From Saitoella complicata NRRL Y-17804 (taxonomy: Eukaryota > Ascomycota > Saitoellomycetes > Saitoellales > Saitoellaceae), in the NCBI RefSeq assembly GCF_001661265.1, contig NW_017566995.1, forward strand, positions 372,001 to 436,000: a stretch of DNA of 64,000 bases. The letters run 5' to 3'. The translations under genes and the position numbers were made by a program. The notes beneath the pieces are model-generated. The model worked only from the letters and a program-made list of their open reading frames with translations, was not told the DNA's origin and did no database searches. Numbering within the stretch: the first letter of the stretch is position 1; every line of letters starts with the position of its first letter. Of this stretch, positions 32,622 through 37,532 are shown one piece after another.

Positions 32622-34407
32622 ATCAGGTATTCGTGACAGTCGAATTCGGGGGGCCCGTAGGGCCGGCAGGGCTTGCCTTGTCAACTGAATGGCCAACCGA
32701 TAGACGTTGATGACTACATGATCAAGGAGACTGTCGAGGTTGGGGTGACAGAGTGGGTTATCTTCGAAGGGGTCGTGGGGAATACAAAATCCTATCTTGT
32801 ATGAAGCCTGAAGTAAATGCATAGCATTATCGAGCATTTCGCCGAGCTTTGTCGTGGATTATACTGAATCAAAGCATGAGTTTGAGCTCATGGATTCATG
32901 GACCAACGTTAAACCGAGGCCATTGTGCCAGAAATGGGTATGAAATTGCTGGATCGCAGCATGGATTAGGTCCATTGTCGTATCATGGATTACTATCGGC
33001 ACAGATCACTCCTTGATTGTGGATTACGATTCATATGCATTTGCACTGTTCCTACACTTCCTATGACATACTTTGCTTAGAAACTTGCCCTTATGTGTAG
33101 TCATATGCGATACAGATCGAATCATGTGATTACAATAATGTCTATATATGGCAGAAGCCACTGTGGGTTCAATACAACAAGACAGTTGTGTATATCAAGC
33201 CTTCAATATCTCAAGACAAATAGACGTTATTTTGGCAATTTCTCAGGTATTTTGCTGTGACTACTTCTGATCTATGATTTTATCTGGGTTTGTAATCCAT
33301 GACATTCTTAATGGGTTTAATTTTTGATAATGTCAAGGATAGTCGTCCACAATTTCTAGGATTTCTGCCAAGTCCGTAATTCCACAATGAAGTGCGTAAT
33401 CCATGTGTAATTCCCGACTAATCCCCGGTTTGACATGAATTACGTACTCTAGGGCGTACATGTATAGTCGCTACCTGCACATTCCACAAAAACACTGCGG
33501 TCTCAGCTTCCTTGACATCCATCATAGGCCATGTACTTTAGACTTGTCGGCTTGATTCACGCGCGCGGTATGATTTGACATAATCCTCGAAAATATGAGG
33601 TCTTCTCCTTGATGAAATCGGGCTTGATCACATGAAAATCAGGGAACATGCCAGAAATGATTGACAAACGCGCAGTAAAGTTATTAGGCTAGAAGAGTGA
33701 GATTACCAAGTAAAAGAGATAATCGCATTGTGACATAGTGTCCAAATAGCTACAGTAGCAGTCCCTTATGGTCCTGTTATCAAGGATGTTAGCACAAGCT
33801 TAATTGCCAGGAGATCTTATTCACACACGCACGTCATGATTTTAGCATCATTTTTGTTTGCGCTTTGGCACATACCTGTTCTATGACTGTGCAGAAAAGC
33901 GGACGCGTAAGCCACAGGGCACACCGCGTTCAAAATCTTCCCAAATCTTTACATGCATCCATCAAGTATTTTAGGTCAAGGCCAGGTGTGAATGACTTCT
34001 CCTTGCAACTGAGCTTTTGCTAACATCCTGGGCCATGGCACGATATCGATGGCTCATGATCTTTTGGTTGACAAACCGTGGGATTGAGCCCGATCTCATC
34101 ATGGATTATACCAAAGATAGCCATGGATCATGAGGAATTCCGCTGTGGATTATGACAGACTTTCTCAGGCGAATGATGCACGTTGCCATGACAAAATGGG
34201 GTGTAATTGACGACAAAAAATCACGGATAGATGAATCGTTATGGTTCTTTGGGGACGTACGACGTACATACAACTCACTCCTGGCTGGTTGGACAATGGT
34301 CTCTGGGTTGCTCTCGAAGTGCACATTGAAGAATTTGGCGGCATGGGTTGCTGTGCACCTCACCCTAAGAATATCCATACGAGAGCGTTGTACCAAAGCC
34401 CTGCATA

Positions 34408-34436
34408 CTGCTGTGTGCAAAATTCTTGACGCGCAT
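34408..34436 (+). repeat. Left terminal inverted repeat of the transposon
   Basis: 29 bp, CTGCTGTGTG... to ...GACGCGCAT, matching the inverse of 37502-37530 exactly, preceded by TA. Confidence 0.93.
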
Positions 34437-34526
34437 TTTCGTACATGCGCGAGACCCCTGTAACGGTAACATAAAACACCTCCAAACAGCTCGAAAAAGG
34501 GTCTAGGAAACTCAGTAAGGGTCGAA

Positions 34527-35624
34527 ATGCTTGGGAAGATATGTGCCGATGTCGACCGCGACAAGGTAATCAACCAATATGCTTCTGGGAAGGATGTCTA
34601 CGAAATAGCGACCAACATTGAGAGGTCTCCTCGCACAGTTTACCGAATTGTGAAGAGATTTGAGGAGACAGGTCTTACTGAGCGTAAGGGCAACTCAACC
34701 TGCGGGCGCAAATCGGCTGTTGACGAGTTTCTGGGCTCGGTAAGTAGACTATTACTGCTCATGGGTACCACCAAGGGCATGACTAAATGACCGCAGCAAA
34801 TCAAGTACCTGTACGACAAAAACCCTACCCTGTATCAAGACGACTGTGCTGAGTTCCTCAATGATCAATTCGCTACATCTCTATCGCGCTACCATGTCAC
34901 CCGCTACCTGCAAAAGATTGGATATACCCGTAAGGTTTTGACCTTACGGGCAGCCCAGCGCAACCCTATCTTACGCGCAAACCATGCCATTGAAATGGCT
35001 GACTATACTCAAGAGCAGCTGGTATTTCTCGACGAATCAGCCGTGGATGAGCGCACGGGTTCACGGAAATTTGGATACTCACCAATAGGCGCCCGCGCTA
35101 TCCAGGAGAGGGTCTTTGGACATTCGACACGTTGGAGTGTGCTGCCGGCATTGACTATTGAAGGTTTGAAGGCGCTGCGGATCTTTCAGGGGTCCTTCAA
35201 TGCTGACCGATTCGTCGAATTCATCGAAGAGGACCTCCTACCAATCGTTGGGCCATTCCCTGGTCCAAACAGTGTCATTGTGCTTGATAATTGTCGAATT
35301 CATCATGATCCAAGGGTTGCTGAACTCTTAGTGAACCAACATGGCTGCCGCATTGTGTTCTTACCGCCATACTCACCCGACCTCAACCCAATTGAGCTCT
35401 GTTTCAGCATGATGAAGGCCTGGATGAAGCGCAATAACAACGACCCTGACGCCCGTCTCGACCCTGCCTCATTTATTCGCAAAGCGATCGACTATATCAA
35501 TGCAGATCTCGAAAAGATCCGCAATTTGTACACGGGCTGTGGTTATGCGCTGACCGGCATGGATTTGCGCCAATATGTTGATAACAACCGTGAAATGGCC
35601 GCTCGAGCGGCTGAGCGGGTGTAG
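34527..35624 (+). CDS. Tc1/mariner (IS630-type) transposase, DD35E
   Basis: Cut-and-paste transposase of the surrounding element. Two exons (34527-34739, 34797-35624) with a 57-bp intron (GTAAGT...CCGCAG) in phase 0 give 346 residues, the usual length for Tc1 relatives. The N terminus has a helix-turn-helix: VINQYASGKDVYEIATNIER followed by SPRTVYRIVKRFEETG. The DDE_3 domain has Asp150 (LVFLDESAVDERT), Asp235 (VIVLDNCRIHH) and Glu271 in PPYSPDLNPIELCFSMMK; 35 residues separate the last two, hence DD35E. All catalytic residues are present and the frame is intact, so activity is possible. Without splicing, the frame closes inside the intron. Confidence 0.93.
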
Positions 35625-35790
35625 CTATCATTCATTAGTTCTTCTCAGTATTTTCATGAATCAAAGGAACATTTCGTTCATTATTCACGTACTTGCCGTT
35701 CTCACGGGTCCTTTCCCTAACAAAATGGCCGGGAACTGCCCCACCTACGTAGCATGCGAGTGTAGCTCACTAGATTACGCTCCTCTGAGA

Positions 35791-35915
35791 CAAGAATTAG
35801 GCACGCTAAGGCAGGGCATGATGCTTTGTCAAGGATTATGCACGCTCAATACCTGCGTTAGCGTGCACAAACCTTGACAAAACAGCATGCCCTGCCTTAG
35901 CGTGCATAATTCTTG
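35791..35915. repeat. 125-bp palindrome between the two transposon genes
   Basis: Arms 35791-35846 and 35860-35915 (56 nt each) pair with only a handful of mismatches around a 13-nt loop (35847-35859). Each arm contains two copies of a motif close to GTCAAGAATTATGCACGCT, four in all. The motif matches the inner part of the terminal repeat (GTCAAGAATTTTGCACAC) at about 16 of 18 positions. It could be internal transposase-binding sites, a two-way transcription terminator for the converging genes, or a small nested foldback element. Confidence 0.85.
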
Positions 35916-36026
35916 ACAACGTCGTTTCGTGCTCGAGTACAGGTTTGCAAAAGAATCAAGCATTGTGGATTGAAAAGCAGTACAGTACGACAGAGATAAC
36001 TATAAATCAAAGCTTTCGTCAAACTC

Positions 36027-37438
36027 CTAGCTTTCGTAGACCTCGAAGGGTGTCTCCTCGAGGCCTAGGGGACCCCTAGGCTTCGATTGCTGCTCCCGCT
36101 GGATACCTTTCCAAACGGGCCACCATTTGCGCATAATCCTCACCCATCCATGCTTCACAGGCGGTAGGCCATTCGGATCGATGTTCTTGAGATCGTCCAG
36201 CACTACTCCATTGTCGATAATTGCATCTCGAACCGTCTGGCAATCAAAGTCGATGTATTCCGGAACTTTGGTCTTGACATAGGCTAGAAACCCGTCCAAA
36301 TCATCAGCAGCCGGCCCTTGAAGAGGGCTCGAGCCCCTGAGCATTTGCGTGTCAATGGTTGTTGGGGTAGGGGTCGGAGTAGGCTGACTTGAGGGAGTAG
36401 CGGCAGTAGATCGAATCGAGGTGCAGTCACTGGTGTAGGTAGTTGAGGCATACTGGACGAAGAGTGCCTGCTTTCAGGTGTTTCCGACTGATCTGTCGAC
36501 TTGTATGGTTTGAGCAACTCAGCGAAAAGGGGATCATGGATGGGTGGATCCTCAACGGTAACCCCATGTTCTTTCGCGACCAAGTACTTAGACCATAGAT
36601 TGAGGAGATCATTGGATATGTATCGATGATAGCCAGAAAAAGGATGAACATAGCAGTACTGCTGGTGGTGCTTGGCGCATTTGTGCTTAGCCTGTAGGGT
36701 CTGAACAGCAAGGATCCTTTTGTAGCGTTGAGGATCATTCGCAAGTTCATTCGAAATGCCCTGGAGAGCAGTGTTGGTAGCACTGTGCCTAGGTCGAGGG
36801 ATGAGAGGCTTTCGGGCCCTGGACTGAGTCTGAGAGGGGTGCAACGGGGTTTGCTGGTCGAACTCGAATTGAGAAGCAGCCCTTGTAGGGTCGTAGTGTG
36901 TTTCGATTAGGATAAAAGCTGACCATTCGACCTTGGGTGTGTTGCGCTCAGTGTGGACGGCATCAATGAAGCCTTCCCAGTCGTCCTCCGTTCGTAGTCT
37001 GCACCATGGTGCATCCCGGCTCCTTCCACGGCAGACTTTCCAGCTGATATTGGGCTTCAGGGAGTATTTGTTGACGCCTTCGACGACCATATGATCATGA
37101 CGGAGCTCCTCGAGGGCGACATCGATCAAAAGCTGCTCTTGGTCGGCCCAAGACTTGACTGGATTGACCGTCCAGTGTGCTTGAGGATACCTGTGGTTCT
37201 TTTGCCTAGTGACGAGAACGAAGACCTGGAAGTCGTCGAATCTGCTGATAGTATCAACCGGCGCGTCTTCGTCTTCGAGTTCGATGACTGTCTTAGGCCG
37301 TTTTTCCCTCCGGACTGTATTTGTAGGTGGTGGTGAGGCTGCATCTTCGAGGAGACAGGAGGGCGGTTTGGGGGTACGAGACGATGCCCTGCGCTTATAC
37401 GAAGCCTTAGCAGCTCCTTTCAGCTTCCTTGGAGGCAT
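36027..37438 (-). CDS. Accessory protein of the transposon, unknown function
   Basis: Starts MPPRKLKGAAKASYKRR at 37438, 92 bp inside the right end, and ends near 36027; about 450 residues. It has a basic, nuclear-type N terminus; a globular middle (~residues 65-200) containing FQVFVLVTRQKNHRYPQAHW, VCRGRSRDAPWCRLRTEDDW and KVEWSAFILIETHYDP; a region with CAKHHQQYCYVHPFSGYHRY; and a C-terminal helical domain (DDLDGFLAYVKTKVPEYI ... LKNIDPNGLPPVKHGWVRIM) resembling a SAM-like fold. The two halves lie in different frames that overlap in a proline/threonine-rich linker at about 36340-36450. A 61-71 bp intron with weak donor sites would join them; a one-base shift is the alternative. I do not recognise the family. 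Confidence 0.6.
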
Positions 37439-37501
37439 TTTCAAGGTTTGGCGGCGTGTTTGGTGGATTGGTCGTGTCCTGCACGAATATGCGGTAAAAT
37501 G

Positions 37502-37530
37502 ATGCGCGTCAAGAATTTTGCACACAGCAG
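37502..37530 (-). repeat. Right terminal inverted repeat of the transposon
   Basis: 29 bp, the exact inverse of 34408-34436, followed by TA. Confidence 0.93.
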
Positions 37531-37532
37531 TA

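Follow-up and report, generated by a model that had tools for sequence, protein, structure and literature searches.

A Tc1/mariner-superfamily transposon of Saitoella complicata NRRL Y-17804 that carries a second, convergent gene

Transposons of the Tc1/mariner superfamily normally carry a transposase alone, and they serve as the model for one-protein transposons and as the source of widely used tools. This study investigated a 3,123-bp element of this superfamily that occupies positions 34408-37530 of a 64,000-nucleotide stretch of the fungus Saitoella complicata NRRL Y-17804 (contig NW_017566995.1, positions 372,001 to 436,000; hereafter the window) and that contains, in addition to a transposase gene, a second gene designated ORF2 (open reading frame 2). 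The closest described systems are the ciliate elements TBE and Tec and, from different superfamilies, maize MuDR and the VANDAL elements of Arabidopsis. According to PMC7325037, TBE and Tec are Tc1/mariner members with extra genes, and TBE encodes a zinc-finger protein and has a small uncharacterised gene alongside its transposase. The same text sets them apart by description from the Saitoella element, giving them three genes, DD34E, telomere-like tips or repeats of about 700 bp, and ciliates as the only hosts; membership in TBE/Tec was rejected for an element with two genes and a fungal host. MuDR is alike in layout, with convergent mudrA (transposase) and mudrB (function unknown) and promoters in its terminal repeats, and differs in having repeats of about 215 bp (PMC3440606). 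In VANDAL elements with VANC, a second protein aids the element against silencing (PMC10398659 and PMC5735166), a role for which ORF2 is only a candidate. The literature searched, the coverage of which was partial and mostly without subscription journals, yielded no Tc1/mariner element from a fungus in which a second gene is conserved. Extra genes in this superfamily are already known from ciliates, and the fungal case with a conserved second gene is new as far as we found.

The window element and its relatives almost certainly constitute a two-gene mobile unit. The reading made from the sequence alone had proposed that the second gene belongs to the mobile unit, and the genome search agreed with it: the gene pair recurs in copies with the same ends and flanking TA, and also in lineages with other terminal repeats. 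The features of the window element are as follows.

34408-34436, plus strand: left terminal inverted repeat, 29 bp, with TA at 34406-34407
34527-35624, plus strand: DD35E transposase gene, 346 aa, with exons at 34527-34739 and 34797-35624 and an intron at 34740-34796
35791-35915, no strand: inter-gene palindrome with 56-nt arms that are 91% complementary and cores that resemble the terminal repeat
36000-37438, minus strand: ORF2, the second gene, 479 aa in the C9 copy, with a frameshift near 36396 in the window copy
36030-36344, minus strand: SAM-like helical region in the C-terminal part of ORF2 (tentative)
36614-36679, minus strand: Cys/His motif of ORF2, about residues 254-275, a possible zinc site (by eye)
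36890-37246, minus strand: PB1-like domain of ORF2, residues 65-183 (fold prediction)
37502-37530, minus strand: right terminal inverted repeat, 29 bp, with TA at 37531-37532

The repeat coordinates and the TA on both sides bore out the perfect 29-bp inverted repeats claimed earlier, which extend to 31 bp when the flanking TA is counted. A 23-mer of the repeat, allowing at most 3 mismatches, occurred within the window only at the two ends of the element and in none of 100 shuffles. Between these ends, the transposase gene and ORF2 converge and are separated by 375 bp. The complete DD35E transposase with one intron also held: the 57-bp intron (GTAAGT...GCAG) yields a 346-aa product without an internal stop, and the D2-E distance is 35 residues, within the Tc1/mariner spacing range of DD34-41D/E; the distance was counted on a 347-aa translation whose intron boundaries are shifted by a few bases but which is identical over this stretch. 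A Pfam search matched the transposase to DDE_3 (PF13358; E 1.2e-32) and to helix-turn-helix families. The DDE_3 domain, the D2-E spacing, the TA duplication, the short inverted repeats, and the helix-turn-helix, for which repeat binding is predicted, are all features that the Saitoella element shares with the Tc1/mariner (IS630-Tc1-mariner) group. The element differs from this group in its second gene, which departs from a single-gene habit that is typical of the superfamily but not defining, and in its length of 3.0-3.1 kb. The pogo superfamily, marked by a DDE_1 domain, was rejected; DDE_1 was not among the 16 Pfam families found at E up to 1. Among the best 120 of 1,133 transposase matches, the top one named for another organism was P0017 of the mushroom Agrocybe chaxingu, at 36% over 88% of the query.

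We searched the genome (14.1 Mb, 34 contigs) for further copies; the copy counts from the DNA search are lower bounds, and several elements are broken up by strings of N that stand for gaps or withheld sequence. The search identified one full-length copy at 99% (C9:253050-256173) and many others that were partial or diverged. In the C9 copy, both genes are open, with 346 aa for the transposase and 479 aa for ORF2. The window element differs from it at 38 places, including one base missing from ORF2 near 36396, because of which the window ORF2 frame stops at 384 aa and not at 479; in the other frame, a stop lies nine residues ahead of the C9 end. The long opposite-strand coding region described earlier is therefore present, with its ATG at the 93rd base counted from the right element end, but it is not full length in the window copy. 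In lineage A, to which the window element belongs, the window element and 9 of 9 fetched copies with both ends were flanked by TA in differing surroundings. Six further copies had one end found, with TA in five of them; the left end of the sixth, L018:1049 (C10:445248), adjoins TG. TA likewise borders both ends of the copies from lineages B (C3), C, and E. An empty site could not be found in this genome of one strain, where the joined window flanks matched just their own two halves. One copy with both ends and TA flanks, L011:976-3538 (C31:114675-117237), has an internally deleted transposase and an open ORF2 of 481 aa.

The terminal repeats of lineages A, B, C, and E are distinct, those of A and B resembling each other: CTGCTGTGTGCAAAA in A (window), CTGCTGGTTGCAAAA in B (C3 copy, 3,024 bp), CAGCCAAACGCAAAA in C (C31), and CTCTCAGTTGCAATA in E (C13 copy, 2,974 bp; C14 copy, 3,011 bp). 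Lineage D (L029, L033, L038), L032, and L037 were separated by protein distance only. To count the gene pair across these lineages, same-strand hits within 2.5 kb were merged into clusters, and neighbors were accepted up to 4 kb. ORF2 was searched with three diverged protein queries, which contributed 82 of 82, 6 of 47, and 13 of 14 hits (those judged to be new places), and the three transposase searches contributed 108 of 108, 4 of 53, and 0 of 54. The results revealed that 47 of the 58 ORF2 clusters had a transposase within 4 kb, convergent in 45, against about 0.6 expected by chance from a rough formula; an earlier count, restricted to the first query and accepting neighbors up to 6 kb, had 40 of 46 convergent. 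The two clusters near a non-convergent transposase are C7:313003 and C16:103030. Counted from the other side, 45 of 61 transposase clusters had a convergent ORF2.

The sequence-only reading had named two outcomes that would tell against a shared mobile unit, namely other copies lacking the second gene and a stand-alone host gene. Neither was seen, within limits set by the 11 ORF2 clusters that had no transposase within 4 kb and the 16 transposase clusters that had no convergent ORF2. Among the 11 lone ORF2 clusters, C1:1038889 ends at a run of N, and the 1,241-residue open frame around C1:403516 hints at another; DNA was read for one of the 11, and the other ten were judged by hit lengths, stops, and gaps. 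Among the 16 transposase clusters, C1:361394 and C16:114399 each break off at a run of N, C3:329105 is a 221-bp fragment, L034 carries an opposite-strand ORF2 remnant detected by profile (E 1.1e-6), and twelve were left as counted. The lone ORF2 cluster whose DNA was read, L045:322-1017 (C26:157651-158268), is a 5'-truncated ORF2 fragment in a 235-residue open frame with no transposase nearby, either a relic or a candidate for host use.

Lineage E (C1, C7, C13, and C14 copies) was rejected as a negative control lacking ORF2, since it contains a convergent ORF2 so strongly diverged that the first two queries missed it. This ORF2 is open over at least 435 residues in two copies. A leave-out profile run against 4,350 six-frame segments detected it at E 2.6e-8 in the C13 copy and E 1.8e-8 in the C14 piece; the match spans the Cys/His motif and the linker, hhalign (probability 93%) adds the C-terminus, and the PB1-like part is not covered. 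In IMG/VR, P0008 alone found no relatives, and an alignment of 15 transposases found 56 loci; searching the six-frame segments of at least 50 residues from these 56 loci with the ORF2 profile gave no match, even with E values as high as 10 allowed.

We further analyzed whether the two genes show signs of selection by calculating the ratio of nonsynonymous to synonymous substitution rates (dN/dS) with our own Nei-Gojobori script, the between-lineage values being near saturation. For ORF2, an A copy compared with a B copy gave a ratio of 0.28 (464 codons, dS 1.5, with one stop in the B copy); the ratio was 0.24-0.38 in the other between-lineage comparisons, 0.35 within B, and 0.34 between the window and C9 copies (7 silent and 8 other changes). 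It was 0.38-0.60 between C9 and seven diverged, mostly damaged A copies, 0.68 for one D pair, and 0.84 between C9 and the transposase-deleted C31 copy (L011). The transposase gave 0.18 for window versus C9 and 0.23 within B, and three between-lineage comparisons were saturated. The distance matrices of ORF2 and transposase from 17 two-gene elements, including damaged ones, correlated at r 0.87, a value reached by none of 2,000 permutations. Between C9 and the C3 copy of B, ORF2 was 52% identical and the transposase 66%, ORF2 being the faster diverging of the two. By these measures ORF2 looks constrained, and the comparisons support the view that both genes are under constraint and diverge together.

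The predicted fold of ORF2 residues 65-183 matched PB1, a domain type that mediates protein contacts. The Pfam PB1 family gave zero matches for ORF2, and its acidic motif appeared to be absent by eye. The fold match, being a model, would point to protein contacts rather than to DNA binding, which the sequence-only reading had put forward, with a regulatory role, as a possibility for the second gene. The Cys/His motif may be a zinc site, and one ORF2 relative showed a sub-threshold Pfam match to CoiA_N at this motif; the SAM-like assignment of the C-terminal end is tentative. No enzyme signature was seen in ORF2. A sequence search of the PDB gave no match for the ORF2 alignment and two chance-level rows for one relative. 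All seven proteins that matched the window ORF2 belong to Saitoella complicata NRRL Y-17804, and the protein searches, of limited sensitivity, found no homologue outside the species. Similar Cys/His proteins are presumably present in mushroom-forming fungi.

On the basis of these findings, a two-gene element with an assembling ORF2 transposition partner is the probable best explanation of the whole. In this scheme, each gene would be expressed inward, starting near its own end. The transposase starts 119 bp and ORF2 92 bp from the respective element ends; therefore, a promoter probably lies at each end, as PMC3440606 reports for MuDR. The transposase would bind the repeats, cut there, and insert the element at TA by a cut-and-paste mechanism. 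The ORF2 protein, with its PB1-like domain, Cys/His motif, and SAM-like end, would multimerise and act as the partner; it is read as an assembling protein because it shows no enzyme sign and because PB1 domains mediate protein contacts. For ORF2 in particular, a role as transposition partner, such as in building or targeting the transposase-DNA complex, is a tentative assignment on which we are nearly evenly divided. With similar reserve, we suggest that the elements may represent an ancient two-gene Tc1/mariner branch in Saitoella in which a self-assembling PB1/SAM-like partner became fixed and selected, which would be the first such partner known to us in the superfamily outside ciliates. 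That the second gene has been retained across deep divergence suggests that a partner is needed by, or benefits, some Tc1/mariner members.

Building the complex, defending against silencing, and damping activity cannot be told apart from sequence alone, and the last two were weighed as rival roles. ORF2 might protect the element from host silencing, whether by repeat-induced mutation or by DNA methylation, in the way that VANC does for VANDAL elements. S. complicata is reported to have DIM-2 and RID genes (PMC7882544), which makes this a fair rival; second genes with such a role are known from elements of another kind (PMC10398659 and PMC5735166), and the faster divergence of ORF2 relative to the transposase is what might be seen in a protein that faces the host. 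Against this, 28 of the 38 differences between the window and C9 copies are transitions (10 C-T, 7 A-G, 6 G-A, and 5 T-C) without a one-sided bias, and we consider silencing defence unlikely, although the strongest competitor. A role as a repressor by which the element restrains its own multiplication would fit the modest number of copies (the window element and nine fetched two-ended lineage A copies, plus fragments) and a separate convergent gene that permits independent control; yet a pure repressor would easily be lost by selection among copies, and ORF2 is present in all lineages compared, so that this role appears distinctly less probable.

Two further explanations concern the origin of the gene pair. 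The inter-gene palindrome, the cores of which resemble the terminal repeat, raised the idea that a canonical 1.4-kb transposase unit and a 1.6-kb ORF2 unit, each bounded by repeats, had fused there. A genome search found the palindrome in lineage A copies only, whereas the gene pair is present in other lineages too, and the palindrome therefore provides no explanation for the origin of the pair. Internal repeat-like sites were at best marginal when scored against 200 mononucleotide shuffles: the score was reached by 0-1 shuffles in one orientation and 9-15 in the other for lineage A, by 3 and 6 for the C3 copy of B, where the sites are not between the genes, and by at least 10 for the C7 copy of B, C, and E. 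Fusion is accordingly very improbable. The inner part of the palindrome is arranged differently among copies by eye. As RNA, it would fold at -84.5 kcal/mol compared with -35.9 for shuffles (z -14.6), a strong predicted fold that follows because a near-perfect palindrome must fold so. Chance capture of a host gene by a single element, with ORF2 as a passenger, would accord with the failure to find an ORF2 homologue outside the species; it was rejected, and we give it almost no weight, because ORF2 recurs in lineages with different repeats, and the constraint and co-divergence also argue against it.

The genome also contains short forms bounded by the repeats. A 24-base piece of the repeat, allowing at most 2 mismatches, occurred 81 times in the genome compared with 0 for the reversed pattern; these occurrences formed 30 pairs, 19 of which span 596-611 bp. 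The one short derivative compared has little beyond the ends in common with the full element, and the pairs have the look of non-autonomous derivatives that are mobilised in trans. The role of the partner is directly testable because intact two-gene copies occur in one genome together with copies in which one gene is damaged and with 607-bp derivatives that contain neither gene. One 608-bp derivative, L028:3692-4299, abuts a lineage B element precisely at that element's terminal TA; in lineage B, the C7 copy has its right TA in common with a 608-bp insertion. Elsewhere in the window, a tRNA-Trp gene lies on the minus strand at 2249-2321.
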